From: Candidatus Copromonas avistercoris (nom. illeg.)
GTDB lineage: Bacteria; Bacillota; Clostridia; Lachnospirales; Lachnospiraceae
Direction of reading: 5' to 3'
DNA: 34,595 nt
NCBI GenBank assembly: GCA_018713185.1
Contig: DVFQ01000066.1
Span: 1-34,595, forward strand
A program made the translations under genes and the position numbers. Below, piece by piece: positions 1,717 to 28,927 of this stretch (positions are counted from its first letter, which is position 1; each line of letters starts with the position of its first letter). The notes under the pieces were generated by a model, which worked only from the letters and a program-made list of their open reading frames with translations, was not told the DNA's origin and searched no databases.

Positions 1717-2505
1717 ATGGAAGAAACGGGGAAAAACCCGATCCAGGTGGCGGCCCGGCTGTTCCAGGTGATCGAGCTTTTGGCGGAGCACGGTCCCATG
1801 GGGATCATGGAGATCAGCGCCAGCCTGGGATTTCATAAAAGCACGGTTCACAGGCTGGTGTCTTCTCTGCAGCAGCTAGGCTATATCCGGCAGGATGAGG
1901 AAACGATGAAGTACGGTCTGTCCTTAAAGTTTTTGGAGATCAGCGGGCGGATCCTGGCGCAGACCAGCATGGCGTCCATTGCGCATCCGTATCTAAAAAA
2001 ACTGTCGGATCTGACCGGGGAGACGGTCCATCTGGTCCGCCGGGAGGGGACGGAAGCGGTTTATATTGATAAGGTGGAATCGAACGTAGGCTCGATCCGC
2101 ATGGTTTCCAGGGTCGGGAGCCGGATTCCGCTGTACTGCTCCGGCGTCGGCAAGGCGCTGCTTTCGGAGCTTTCGGAGGAGGAAATCCGCGCGGTTTGGA
2201 ACGAGTCGGAGATCAAAAAGCTGACTCCCCATACGATCACGGAGCTTTCGGAGCTTTTTGAGCGGGTCGGAGAGGTCAGAAAAAACGGCTATGCGGTCGA
2301 TGACGAGGAGAACGAGGCGGGAGTCCGCTGCGTGGCAGTGAGCCTTTTGGATTATCACCGGAGCCCGGTTTACGCGTTAAGTATTTCCGCGCCCGCAAGC
2401 CGGATGGACCGGGAGCGGATCCTGGAATTAAAGGACGCCTTGCTGGAGATAAAAGGCGAGCTTATGGCTGCCATGGGTTTGGAAGACGGACGGAGAAAAT
2501 TATGA
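1717..2505 (+). CDS. IclR family transcriptional regulator
   Basis: 262 aa. N-terminal HTH (MEISASLGFHKSTVHRLVSSLQQLGYIRQ) and IclR effector-domain pattern (YCSGVGKALLSELSEEE, VRCVAVSLLDYHRSPVYALSISAP). Confidence 0.93.
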   Translation: MEETGKNPIQVAARLFQVIELLAEHGPMGIMEISASLGFHKSTVHRLVSSLQQLGYIRQDEETMKYGLSLKFLEISGRILAQTSMASIAHPYLKKLSDLTGETVHLVRREGTEAVYIDKVESNVGSIRMVSRVGSRIPLYCSGVGKALLSELSEEEIRAVWNESEIKKLTPHTITELSELFERVGEVRKNGYAVDDEENEAGVRCVAVSLLDYHRSPVYALSISAPASRMDRERILELKDALLEIKGELMAAMGLEDGRRKL

Positions 2506-3146
2506 CGGAGAGAGATTCTGGAAAAGCGGAAGCACCGGGCGCCGCAAAAACGGAAGCGCTGGATAGGGAAAAAATGGATGCGCCGGCAAAAAGCAGGATT
2601 CTGGCCAAGCTTTTCTGGTCCACGCTTTATCTGAGCGCGTTTACGTTCGGCGGCGGTTATGTGATCGTAACGCTGATGAAAAAGAAATTTGTGGACGAAT
2701 ACGGATGGATCAAAGAGGATGAAATGCTGGATCTGGTGGCCATCGCCCAGTCTTCGCCGGGAGCCATCGCGGTCAATGGAGCGATCGTGATCGGCTATAA
2801 GCTGGCGGGGCTTTTGGGGGCGGCGACCGCGATTTTGGCGACCGTAATCCCGCCTTTTGTGGTAATTTCAGCGGTATCCCTGTTTTATAACGCGTTTCGG
2901 GAAAACCTGGTGATCGGCCTGATGTTGGAAGGAATGCAGGCAGGCGTGGGAGCCGTGATCGCCGTTGTGGTTTATGAAATGGGAAGCGGGATCGTCCGTG
3001 GAAAAAGCTGGACTTCCAATTTGATCATGGCGGGGGCGTTTCTGGCCTCCTGCGTCTTTGGAGTCAACGTGGTGCTGGTGGTGATCGTCTGCGGCCTGAT
3101 CGGCGCGGCGCGGACGTTTCTTGGAAGAAAGGAGGGCCGTTCATGA
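2502..3146 (+). CDS. chrA: Chromate transporter (half-size CHR domain)
   Basis: 214 aa. TFGGGYVIVTLMKKKFVDEYGW...DLVAIAQSSPGAIAVNGAIVIGYKLAG. Overlaps the IclR stop by ATGA. Confidence 0.9.
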   Translation: MTERDSGKAEAPGAAKTEALDREKMDAPAKSRILAKLFWSTLYLSAFTFGGGYVIVTLMKKKFVDEYGWIKEDEMLDLVAIAQSSPGAIAVNGAIVIGYKLAGLLGAATAILATVIPPFVVISAVSLFYNAFRENLVIGLMLEGMQAGVGAVIAVVVYEMGSGIVRGKSWTSNLIMAGAFLASCVFGVNVVLVVIVCGLIGAARTFLGRKEGRS

Positions 3147-3706
3147 TCTATCTTCAGTTGTTTTTGAGCTTTCTTCAGATCGGCCTTTTCAGCTTCGGCG
3201 GCGGCTACGCGGCGATGCCGCTGATCCAGGATCAGGTGGTGACGGCCCACGGCTGGCTGTCCATGCCGGAGTTTACGGATCTGATCACGATCTCCCAGAT
3301 GACGCCGGGTCCCATCGCCATCAACTCCGCCACCTTTGTGGGAATGAAAATCGCGGGAGTGCCGGGAGCTATCGCGGCGACAGTGGGATGCGTTTTTCCC
3401 TCCTGCGTTATCGTTACGCTGCTGGCGCGGCTGTATTTAAAATATCGGGATATGTCCCTTCTTCAAGGAATTTTGGGCTCGCTTCGCCCGGCGGTGGTGG
3501 CCATGGTGGCGGCGGCCGGAATTTCGATCTTGATCACCGCTTTCTGGGGCGGTGACCAGATTGGTTCTCTGGAAAGCACAAGGTGGTGGATGGTCGGGAT
3601 TTTTGCCCTTTGCGTTCTTTTCTTAAAGAAATTGAACTGGAATCCGATTGCCGTGATGCTGTCCGCCGGAGTGCTTAGGGTCCTTCTGGCAGTGCTTGGG
3701 ATCTGA
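3143..3706 (+). CDS. chrA: Chromate transporter (second half-size CHR domain)
   Basis: 187 aa. SFGGGYAAMPLIQDQVV...DLITISQMTPGPIAINSATFVGMKIAG. Overlaps the previous CDS by ATGA. Confidence 0.9.
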   Translation: MIYLQLFLSFLQIGLFSFGGGYAAMPLIQDQVVTAHGWLSMPEFTDLITISQMTPGPIAINSATFVGMKIAGVPGAIAATVGCVFPSCVIVTLLARLYLKYRDMSLLQGILGSLRPAVVAMVAAAGISILITAFWGGDQIGSLESTRWWMVGIFALCVLFLKKLNWNPIAVMLSAGVLRVLLAVLGI

Positions 3707-9084: not shown

Positions 9085-9390
9085 ATGGCGCAAATAACTT
9101 TTAGTGTACGGATGGATGAGACATTAAAACGTCAATTTGATTCTTTATGCGCAGATTTTGGGATGACAGCTTCAACAGCGATTAACGTATTTGCAAAGGC
9201 AGTAATTCGGGAGCGAAGGATTCCATTTGAAATAGCAGCGACGAAAACGGATATGACGCAGGAACAGGCGATACGCGCATTCGAGGCTCTTAGAGAACAG
9301 GCATCTCAAAATTTTCCGGAGGGAATGTCTTTGGAAGAAATAAATGAAGAAATACGCCAGGCCAGATATGGAGAGGAGGCGATAAAGTAA
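9085..9390 (+). CDS. RelB/DinJ family antitoxin
   Basis: 101 aa. MAQITFSVRMDETLKRQFDSLCADFGMTASTAINVFAKAVIRERRIPFEI is typical of RelB/DinJ RHH antitoxins. Confidence 0.92.
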   Translation: MAQITFSVRMDETLKRQFDSLCADFGMTASTAINVFAKAVIRERRIPFEIAATKTDMTQEQAIRAFEALREQASQNFPEGMSLEEINEEIRQARYGEEAIK

Positions 9391-9391
9391 A

Positions 9392-9817
9392 ATGCGATGT
9401 AACGCAGTGTTTGACACAAATGTGCTTGTTGCTGCGTTGCTTTCTCCCTATGAAGATTCTGCAACGGTTCAGCTTGTAAAAAGCATGTTTTTCGGAGAAA
9501 TAGTACCGGTTTACAGCAGAGAAATTATGGATGAATACAAAAATGTCCTGTATCGGGAGAAATTTAAATTTGATCCGCTGAAAATTTCATATATCTTATC
9601 TTGGATTGAGAATGTTGGGATCATGACGGTTTCGTTTAACAGCGGCATCGTTCTCCCAGATCCGAAGGATCTGCCGTTTTATGAGGCGATATGTGGAAAC
9701 AGAGAAAACCAGATTTATTTGGTGACTGGTAATTTAAAGCACTTTCCTAAAGACCAATACATCATATCGGCAAGAGAAATGCTCGATATACTGAGAAGAA
9801 AATTTACAGACCATTAG
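9392..9817 (+). CDS. PIN-domain toxin of a type II TA system
   Basis: 141 aa. AVFDTNVLVAALLS at the N-terminus, SREIMDEYKNVL, LPDPKDLPFYEAI, and YLVTGNLKHFPKD. Begins one base after the antitoxin stop. Confidence 0.88.
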   Translation: MRCNAVFDTNVLVAALLSPYEDSATVQLVKSMFFGEIVPVYSREIMDEYKNVLYREKFKFDPLKISYILSWIENVGIMTVSFNSGIVLPDPKDLPFYEAICGNRENQIYLVTGNLKHFPKDQYIISAREMLDILRRKFTDH

Positions 9818-25808: not shown

Positions 25809-25860
25809 GCCCGCTTTGCAAAAACCGGTTGATCGGGTTTGTTGTAAAGCGGGCTGTTTT
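25809..25860 (+). terminator. Terminator downstream of the secreted protein gene
   Basis: GCCCGCTTT (25809-25817) / AAAGCGGGC (25846-25854) with further imperfect pairing, then TGTTTT. A separate GCGCCGC/GGCGGCGC hairpin lies just upstream (about 25759-25780). Confidence 0.75.
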
Positions 25861-25919
25861 GCGCGCGGCCAAGGAAACAGGCATATACTGGCAGTAAGCG
25901 AACCGATGGGAGTTTTTAC

Positions 25920-27020
25920 ATGGTTTCTGTCAGTCTATGCATGATCGTAAAGGATGAGGAAGCGGTTCTTTCCCGATGCCTTACGAGCGTTGGGGATTTC
26001 GCGGATGAGATCATCATCGTGGATACCGGTTCCAAAGACCGGACGAAGGAGATCGCCGGGCAGTTTACAGATAAGATCTATGATTTTTCTTGGAGGGATG
26101 ATTTTGCCGCCGCCAGAAATTTCGCCTTTGAAAAAGGGACGGGAGATTACCTGTTCTGGCTGGACGCGGATGATGTGATCCCCAAAGAGGAGCTTACGAA
26201 GCTAATGGATTTAAAGGCGTCTCTTGAGGATCCGCTGCCGGATGTTGTGATGATGAACTACGCGGTGGGATTTGACGAGTCGGGCCGGCCGGTTTTTTCC
26301 TTTTTCCGGGAGCGGATGATCAAAAGAGGCCCCAACGCCGTCTGGCGGGGCAGGATCCATGAGGTGATCCCGCCGTTTGGAACGGTGATCAAGAAAGAGA
26401 TCACCATCGAGCACCATAAGCGAAAAACCTCTGACGCGGGACGGAATCTGAGGATCCTTAAGGAGATGCAGAGGACGGAGGGCCTGGGGACAAGAGATCA
26501 GTATTATTATGGAAAGGAACTATATTACCATAAGCAATACCGGGAGGCGGAGCGGGCGCTGGCGGAATTTTTAAAGCGTCCGGACGGCTGGCGGGAGGAT
26601 CAGGTAGACGCCTGCCGCCACCGCGCCTACTGCCTGTATGGGCTGTCCGAGGAAGAAGAAGCGCTGTCCGCGCTCTTGGAGGGACTGCGGTTCTCCATTC
26701 CCCGCCCGGAGCTTTGCTGCGATATCGGCTGGTGGTTTTTTAGAAAAGAACGGTATCCGGAGGCGGCCTGGTGGTACCGGAGGGCGCTGGAGAACCGGAA
26801 AACAGCCGGAAACGAAGGCTTTATCCAGGAGGAGCTGCGGGGATACGTCCCCTGCCTCCAGCTTTGCGTCTGCTATGACCGGATGGGGAAACGGGGGCTT
26901 GCCGCCCGGTATAATGAAATGGCGGACCGCTTCCGGCCCGGTTCCGAGGTCTGCGAACAAAACCGGCGGTATTTTCGGAAGACCGGGGCAAAACCGGACG
27001 TCCCGCATATGATAAAGTAA
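25920..27020 (+). CDS. Glycosyltransferase family 2 with C-terminal TPR-like region
   Basis: 366 aa. [51 protein letters not shown]-terminal repeated alpha-helical region. Confidence 0.9.
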
Positions 27021-27040
27021 AACAAGCCAAGGAGAACAAC

Positions 27041-28306
27041 ATGTTTCATCCTTATGAATCTTTATCAAAAGTAATGCGGGGCTTTACGGGAAAAGAGACG
27101 GAGCGCTCCGATGAGAAATATTCGCCGGCGGAGACGGACGGCGGCCGGGAGGTCAGCGGATGCTCCTGCGGCTGCGGAAGACCGTGCTATCCCCGGTACT
27201 GCTGCTATGGCCCGACGGGTCCGACCGGCCCGATGGGTCCAATGGGGCCGATGGGACCAATGGGCCCGATGGGGCCTCAGGGCGTTACGGGAGCAACAGG
27301 AGCTACCGGTCCGATGGGCCCCATGGGATTTCCCGGCGCCGCAGGAGCGACAGGAGCGACGGGTGCGACAGGCGCAACAGGAGCTACTGGCCCGGCAGGA
27401 GCAGGACTGGAAAATGTTTCTGAATTTTCTGTCGGAACGCCCTACGCGAGAGGCGCGATGGTCTTTTATAACGGCGCTCTTTACCAGGTGGCCCAGAATA
27501 ACCCGACCGGCCTTCCTGGAATGTCTCCGGATTACAATCTGATCACGGTTGCAGGAGCGACGGGCGCGACAGGCCCGGCCGGAGCCACAGGCGCAACAGG
27601 AGCGACGGGTGCGACAGGAGCCACAGGAGCGGCAGGAGCCACGGGAGCGACGGGAGCCACCGGTCCGGCAGGTCCGGCAGGAGCCGCAGGCGCAGCGGGA
27701 GCCACAGGAGCGACGGGAGCAACGGGAGCCACCGGTCCGGAAGGCCCGGCAGGAGCCGCGGGGGCGGCTGGCGCCACCGGCGCAACGGGAGCAACGGGAG
27801 CAACCGGTCCGGAAGGCCCGGCGGGAGCCGCGGGGGCGGCGGGAGCAACCGGCGCGACAGGCGCAACGGGAGCAACTGGCCCCACGGGAGCCGCTCCGCC
27901 GTTAAACGCGTTATATGCCACCAATACTGGAACCCAGAATCCGGCGGCCACCGGCGATCCGCTGACCTTTGATACCACCCAGCTGGCGGAAGGAACGGCG
28001 GTCACCCATACGGGCGGCAGCAGCGACATTACGCTTACGGAAAACGGCGTGTACCAGATTTCCTACTCTACCGTAGGAACGGATACCACCGGCGCGGGCA
28101 CGACCAGCGTTCAGCTGCAGGAGGACGGCACGGAGATCCCGGGAACCACTTCCGCGGCCAACGTGGCCAACGCCAACGACCAGGCGGCTCTTTCGGGAAC
28201 GGCGATCGTCGACGTAACCTCGGCCCCGGTGACCATTACCTTAAATTCCATTGGAACCAACCAGCAGTTTTCCAATACGGGAGTTTCCGTGCGGAAGCTG
28301 GATTAA
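27041..28306 (+). CDS. Collagen-like protein with BclA-like C-terminal domain (putative exosporium/surface glycoprotein)
   Basis: 421 aa. Cys-rich N-terminus ([17 protein letters not shown]), long Gly-X-Y tracts (GPM, GAT, GPA), an internal non-collagen segment, and a C-terminal beta-rich BclA-type domain ([43 protein letters not shown]). Confidence 0.9.
27659..27874 (+). repeat. 72-bp coding tandem repeat (24-aa collagen cassette), 3 units
   Basis: accggtccgg at 27659, 27731 and 27803 (72-bp spacing), encoding [24 protein letters not shown]-type units. Confidence 0.85.
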
Positions 28307-28353
28307 CGAAAGAATCAGAACTTTTTGACAGGCGCTGCCGCGCGGTGAGCAAA

Positions 28354-28371
28354 GGCCGCCGCGCGGCGGCC
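28354..28371. repeat. Perfect 18-bp GC palindrome
   Basis: GGCCGCCGCGCGGCGGCC, self-complementary without spacer, intergenic. Confidence 0.85.
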
Positions 28372-28420: not shown

Positions 28421-28927
28421 ATGTTCAGAGAATTGCGGAGAAAACGGCAGGCGTTATCGGAAACGGACTGTTCGGATATTTTAAAGAGGGGAACGTCCGG
28501 CGTTCTCGCCCTCATGGGAGACGGAGGATATCCCTATGCCGTTCCCATGAGCTATGTCTATGACGGGGAGAAGCTGTACTTTCACTGCGCGAAAAGCGGT
28601 CATAAGCTGGACGCCATCGCGGGGAATCCCAAGGCTTCCTTTTGTGTCGTTGACCGGGATCAGGTGGTGCCGGAGGAATATACCACGTATTTTCGCAGCG
28701 TGATCGTGTTCGGCACAATGCGGATCATAGAGGAGGAACAGGAAAAACGGACGGCGATTGAAAAGCTGGCGCTTAAATACGCGCCGGAGGATTCGGCCCA
28801 AAACCGCGCGGCGGCGATCGAGAAGGATTGGAAGCCGCTATGTATGCTGGAGCTGACGCCGGAGCATATTACCGGCAAGGAAGCCGTCGAGCTTACGAAG
28901 CGGCGGGTACTTAAGACAGAGTCTTAG
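28421..28927 (+). CDS. Pyridoxamine 5'-phosphate oxidase-like / NimA-like flavin-binding protein
   Basis: 168 aa. GTSGVLALMGDGGYPYAVPMSYVYDGEKLYFHCAKSGHKLDAIAGNPKASFCVV. Confidence 0.88.
   Translation: MFRELRRKRQALSETDCSDILKRGTSGVLALMGDGGYPYAVPMSYVYDGEKLYFHCAKSGHKLDAIAGNPKASFCVVDRDQVVPEEYTTYFRSVIVFGTMRIIEEEQEKRTAIEKLALKYAPEDSAQNRAAAIEKDWKPLCMLELTPEHITGKEAVELTKRRVLKTES

Follow-up and report, generated by a model that had tools for sequence, protein, structure and literature searches.

The 34,595-nucleotide stretch of DNA analysed here (the window) carries a glycosyltransferase (GT) gene and a collagen-like gene that form a two-gene unit on the plus strand. The original prediction described a GT2 gene with a TPR-like C-terminus lying 20 bp before a collagen-like gene, and an ORF check found this arrangement (GT at 25920-27020, collagen-like gene at 27041-28306). 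The CBM5/12-like insert, the Cys-rich N-terminus and the promoter listed below were absent from that earlier reading. The features of the locus are:

25809 to 25854, plus strand: stem-loop lying after the DUF6612 gene and before the GT gene, a probable terminator
25863 to 25889, plus strand: candidate sigma-K-type promoter, with the -10 site CATATACT at 25882-25889 and the -35 site GCG at 25863-25865
25920 to 27020, plus strand: SgtA-type GT of 366 aa, with a GT-A domain at residues 1 to about 170 and a TPR-like C-terminus at about 191-355
26163 to 26174, plus strand: Asp-Ala-Asp-Asp (residues 82-85), the metal/nucleotide-sugar motif of the GT
27041 to 28306, plus strand: collagen-like, BclA-type fibre protein of 421 aa (PF01391, E 4e-26)
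27041 to 27208, plus strand: Cys-rich N-terminal region (residues 1-56, 7 Cys), read from the sequence
27209 to 27403, plus strand: first collagen segment, of GPT/GPM/GAT triplets (PF01391 and triplet count)
27404 to 27553, plus strand: CBM5/12-like (chitin-binding-type) insert, residues 122-171, which splits the collagen in two
27554 to 27895, plus strand: second collagen segment, rich in Gly-Ala-Thr (triplet count)
27896 to 28303, plus strand: C-terminal trimerising jelly-roll, predicted to have the BclA/C1q fold (AF2 pLDDT 92.8)
28334 to 28369, plus strand: GC-rich stem-loop, lacking a T run, 3' of the collagen stop codon

The GT stop codon ends at 27020 and the collagen ATG begins at 27041, and the 20-bp gap between them holds AAGGAG as a ribosome site (27029-27034); a scan of this intergenic gap for terminators found none. 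The upstream stem-loop consists of a 16-nt inverted repeat (88% complementary) followed by TGTTTTG, folds as RNA at -30.7 kcal/mol (z -4.5) and probably splits the pair from the DUF6612 gene as a separate transcription unit. The downstream stem-loop (-40.7 kcal/mol, z -2.4) was not picked up by the terminator scan and possibly marks the 3' end of the unit. Flanked by stem-loops on both sides, the pair appears to be transcribed as a unit of its own.

The window belongs to the chromosomal core, with rho and rpoBC on one side of the pair and glpK, rpsL and fusA on the other. The pair occupies a similar place among similar neighbours in the same-genus relative G001 and in G020, and the neighbours rpoC, glpK, rpsL and fusA are largely shared among close relatives. 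These observations argue against the reading of the locus as a phage or mobile-element tail-fibre cassette, which draws on GT2+TPR homologues in viral contigs and on the occurrence of CBM5/12-like inserts in phage tail fibres too. Adjoining collagen genes were present in 0 of the 18 viral loci checked (those of the closest viral GT homologues), and with the window placed between rpoBC and rpsL-fusA a phage origin was rejected as having a negligible probability. Elsewhere in the window are a homologue of the NimABCDEF-like 5-nitroimidazole reductases (28421-28927; 196 bits against a cut-off of 260), a RelB/DinJ-type antitoxin followed by a PIN-family putative toxin (9085-9817) and two adjoining short ChrA/ChrB-type chromate transporter halves (2502-3706).

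The GT matches PF00535 over residues 5-153 (E 3e-24), and in an AlphaFold (AF2) model built on 44 relatives (pLDDT 94.3) the N-terminal half is GT-A-like while helical repeats make up the C-terminal half. The GT2 plus TPR-like architecture proposed for the protein is thus seen in the structure prediction and in PF00535, while the Pfam match to TPR_16 (residues 198-255) is weak and below its cut-off. Residues D82, A83, D84 and D85 are invariant across 44 homologues and align with the DAD of GmaR and SunS, the nearest solved proteins by sequence. The nearest solved structures use protein or peptide acceptors, and the best PDB fold matches of the model are SunS and ThuS (E 2e-18). SunS, which S-links on peptides, is also the best NCBIfam model for the GT (E 3e-15). 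These matches, together with the Cys-rich N-terminus of the collagen, lend some support to a reading in which the enzyme class and the collagen substrate are the same and the sugar is a different one (for example glucose, GalNAc or a deoxysugar) or is S-linked to the N-terminal Cys. This reading is unlikely, however, as the GT falls below the curated cut-off of the SunS S-glycosyltransferase model TIGR04195 (56 bits vs 350) and as SgtA, a far closer characterised homologue, makes O-GlcNAc on Thr (PMC7157674).

The collagen-like protein contains 60 Gly-X-Y triplets, of which 34 bear Thr, in every case in position Y, and 29 are Gly-Ala-Thr. A repeat dominated by Thr-bearing, mainly Gly-Ala-Thr triplets had been noted from the sequence, and the count bears this out. 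The Thr residues in position Y of the second segment are proposed as the O-glycan sites. The N-terminal region is probably the anchoring part of the protein; several Cys within the first 60 residues are also found in most collagen partners of homologous GTs. Neither a signal peptide nor an LPXTG motif is evident in the protein. The model of the C-terminal domain resembles the C-terminal domain of F-BclA (9h38, TM 0.81) and that of Bacillus anthracis BclA (1wck, TM 0.75). In Pfam, BclA_C (PF18573) does not match the window collagen at E up to 1 and matches 11 of the 31 sequences scanned (window and partner collagens) at E up to 0.01. The "BclA-type domain" of the original prediction therefore stands by fold (TM 0.75-0.81) and fails by Pfam family. 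With a collagen repeat (PF01391) and a BclA-fold C-terminal domain, the protein has the make-up of the BclA-like exosporium collagens. The genome contains a second Thr-rich collagen-like gene (L160; contig C34, about 43400-44404, minus strand) that encodes 335 aa with Thr in 64% of triplets and, like bclA1 and bclA2 of C. difficile, has no adjoining GT. Its product is a possible second substrate of the GT. The counterpart of this gene in G001 (L162) has the same setting.

The insert that splits the collagen matches PF02839 (E 0.0017) at 18.8 bits, short of the gathering threshold of 26.2, so that CBM5/12 membership is not reached by the single sequence. A profile built from five inserts matches the chitin-binding domains of chitinases of solved structure (best E 7e-5). 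Besides the window collagen, the G001 protein and three further GT-linked partner collagens contain the insert. It may be regarded as the variant feature of the window pair within the SgtA-BclA3 kind.

The closest characterised counterpart of the pair is found in C. difficile, where sgtA lies directly upstream of bclA3 (PMC7157674). SgtA uses UDP-GlcNAc in vitro to place beta-O-GlcNAc on Thr of BclA3 collagen peptides, and the spore glycoprotein signal is lost in an sgtA mutant (PMC7157674). A C. difficile-type sgtA was located by means of the published forward primer; it encodes the published SgtA termini, and the gene next to it encodes the published BclA3 N-terminus. The published reverse primer has no exact DNA match in the Clostridioides loci, and its translation agrees with the protein end; thus, the SgtA reference may come from another strain or a sister species. 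The window GT is 47% identical to SgtA over 355 residues, its whole length (E 3e-122). It is an SgtA-type enzyme by full-length homology, by its GT-A domain joined to a TPR C-terminus and by a collagen-like gene adjoining on the same strand at 20 bp. In a tree of 111 GTs, the window GT and SgtA fall into one clade of 80 (SH-aLRT 99). A long branch (1.06, support 100) sets off 100 GTs that include all collagen-linked ones, and none of the GT2+TPR proteins sampled beyond it is collagen-linked. The sgtA-bclA3 precedent cited for the locus is thus a true homologue with a published activity on its collagen partner (PMC7157674). In SgtA, the TPR part (residues 265-354; L118:455-1528) resembles TPR_P4H, the domain with which prolyl 4-hydroxylase binds collagen peptides, at a score below threshold (19 bits, cut-off 27), which may hint at how an SgtA-type enzyme grips collagen; the window GT is without such a match. 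An order-wide primer search also yielded an SgtA-like GT (L125, in genome G219) with initial codons close to the sgtA primer sequence and no collagen ORF directly after it.

Conservation beside a collagen gene in relatives was the test named for the dedicated pairing, and such conservation is indeed seen over the Clostridia and as far as the Bacilli. In a set of 98 relatives, most of the closest full-length GT homologues have an adjoining collagen gene. Linkage was counted in 80 GT homologues from public genomes (about 41-53% identical, related loci included) that span Clostridia, Paenibacillus, Aquibacillus and Desulfosporosinus. In 51 of the 80, the distance to a collagen gene is no more than 500 bp, and 62 of the 64 such collagen genes are on the same strand as the GT. 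Collagen genes occur at 0.82 per kb within 500 bp vs about 0.01 per kb beyond 1.5 kb, a difference of about 80-fold. When only the 61 homologues with complete 1.5-kb flanks on both sides are considered, a collagen gene is found within 500 bp in 39 (none in 22) and within 1.5 kb in 44 (none in 17). With about one third of homologues lacking a neighbouring collagen gene, the linkage is strong rather than absolute, and the GT may therefore have further substrates among unlinked collagens or other proteins. The share of Thr triplets is higher in linked than in unlinked collagens (median 0.51 vs 0.25, p 0.01 in a small sample with kinship ignored), and in two-collagen operons, which have one collagen gene on each side of the GT, the upstream collagen is Thr-poor. 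In one clade of gut Clostridia (L047, L056, L057, L060, L061, L067-L070, L075, L076, L086 and L097), three genes stand together, a short Thr-poor collagen gene being followed by the GT gene and a long collagen gene; the long collagen has a GPAGPKGDQGP-type start and a Thr-rich later part.

The homologues without an adjoining collagen gene, together with GmaR among the solved relatives and the many relatives that carry GT2+TPR proteins of other clades, lend something to a different explanation. The GT could act on flagellin, teichoic acid or another coat protein, the two neighbours merely both being late sporulation genes. The tight same-strand linkage across very diverse genomes argues against this, as do the GT2+TPR paralogues outside the clade, none of which is collagen-linked, and we consider such a target quite improbable. 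The proposal of a dedicated GT for the collagen fibre is instead backed by the conserved linkage and by homology to SgtA, with glycosylation in the window itself being predicted.

The timing of expression is suggested by the regions upstream of the GT genes. Among 63 GT genes that lead their operon (related loci included; dinucleotide shuffles as the control), CATANNNT is present upstream in 50 vs 9.1 expected. Alignment on the CATANNNT box alone brings out an A-C-[C/A] element 16-17 bases upstream, and the combined motif AC-N16/17-CATANNNT occurs in 28 of the 63 (0.65 expected; a maximum of 3 in 200 shuffles). The motif is the sigma-K one reported for C. difficile; in that species, loss of sigK lowers sgtA expression to 0.09 of the normal level (PMC3789822). 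A sigma-E-type spacing with ATA is not enriched in the 63 upstream regions (2 vs 0.99 expected). GT genes preceded in their operon by another collagen gene mostly lack the motif (present in 5 of 25). In the window, the -10 site CATATACT fits, and its place and spacing are as in the motif enriched upstream of the 63 homologous GTs. The -35 site is weak (GCG vs the consensus AC[C/A]); the relative G001 reads ACC there. No sigma-70 promoter was found in this region. The genome itself encodes SpoIVA (598 bits, well above the cut-off) and two sigma-K/E-like factors, the better of which scores just under the sigma-K cut-off. Of the relatives, the 17 that carry an SgtA-like full-length GT all have SpoIVA, compared with 58 of the 81 others (p 0.01). 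The conserved sigma-K-type promoter upstream of the homologues suggests that the GT and collagen genes are a late mother-cell sporulation unit, and we infer that the mother cell would make both proteins late in sporulation.

The two surface settings originally envisaged can be weighed on this basis. A vegetative cell-surface collagen with its own GT, such as an Scl-type adhesin, finds a trace of support in sub-threshold matches to Scl1/Scl2 models, which come from the shared collagen repeat. The collagen protein, however, has the BclA fold and no evident signal peptide or LPXTG. The spore or exosporium is also favoured by the sigma-K-type promoter of the relatives and by the presence of SpoIVA, both in the genome itself and in each of the 17 relatives with a full-length SgtA-like GT. 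A vegetative role is accordingly a very remote prospect.

The pair is thus probably a unit of the SgtA-BclA3 kind, dedicated to glycosylating a spore fibre, the activity, donor, acceptor sites and spore location of the window pair being predictions. In the proposed mechanism, both genes would be transcribed from the sigma-K-type promoter in the mother cell late in sporulation, and the collagen protein, having no evident signal peptide, would stay in the mother-cell cytoplasm. The TPR half of the GT would hold the collagen chain while the GT-A half transfers a sugar to the Thr at position Y of Gly-X-Thr triplets. The sugar would most likely be GlcNAc; UDP-GlcNAc as the most likely donor is carried over from SgtA, which is only 47% identical. 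The chains would then trimerise via the BclA-fold C-terminal domain and the Cys-rich N-terminus would fix the trimers to the spore surface, giving a glycosylated hair-like layer.

A module of SgtA and collagen is already known from C. difficile, and a cassette of this type has so far been characterised only there. What appears to be new is the breadth of the pair and the sigma-K signature across lineages. The open-access literature yielded no report of the pair outside C. difficile, which is weak evidence given that open-access scope, and none of the pair's breadth, the cross-lineage sigma-K signature or the CBM-like insert. It is more likely than not that a sigma-K-controlled cassette of two genes for spore-fibre glycosylation is widespread, extending from commensal Clostridia into Bacilli, that the window carries one copy of it, and that a domain of GlcNAc-polymer-binding type sits inside the fibre in a subset that includes the window. 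Because of such a domain, GlcNAc-bearing fibres could bind one another, mucin or chitin. Many gut commensals reach new hosts as spores, whose outermost layer is the first part to touch the host. Should one cassette under sigma-K build the spore sugar coat in many gut Clostridia, the biochemistry of SgtA, established in a single pathogen, would become a general model that can be tested in commensals. A further use of the pair is as a simple, self-contained system to glycosylate recombinant collagen.

Several known systems resemble parts of the pair. GmaR is the flagellin GlcNAc transferase of Listeria. It is the best single-sequence PDB match to the window GT (E 1e-28 over the GT domain), a match limited to GT residues 4-94 in that search, and no flagellar genes lie beside the window GT. 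The peptide S-glycosyltransferases SunS and ThuS have the closest PDB fold to the window GT; they differ from it in sequence (17-22% identity) and in their acceptors, and are not known to have a collagen partner. The Bacillus proteins BclA and F-BclA (of the exosporium nap and the F-ENA tip fibrils) share the collagen stalk and C-terminal jelly-roll (TM 0.75-0.81), whereas the identity of the C-terminal domain is only 21-23%, Pfam BclA_C is not reached and the GT genes in Bacillus are different ones. The SgtA (CD3350) and BclA3 (CD3349) pair of C. difficile resembles the window in both genes. The two GTs combine GT-A and TPR parts at similar length (358 aa vs 366 aa in the window), and in both cases the GT gene directly precedes a Thr-rich collagen gene in the same orientation. 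The window collagen differs from BclA3 in being rich in Gly-Ala-Thr rather than Gly-Pro-Thr, in its CBM5/12-like insert and in being shorter. The two collagens are alike in having Cys in the N-terminus, and the CATANNNT box upstream is common to both pairs.
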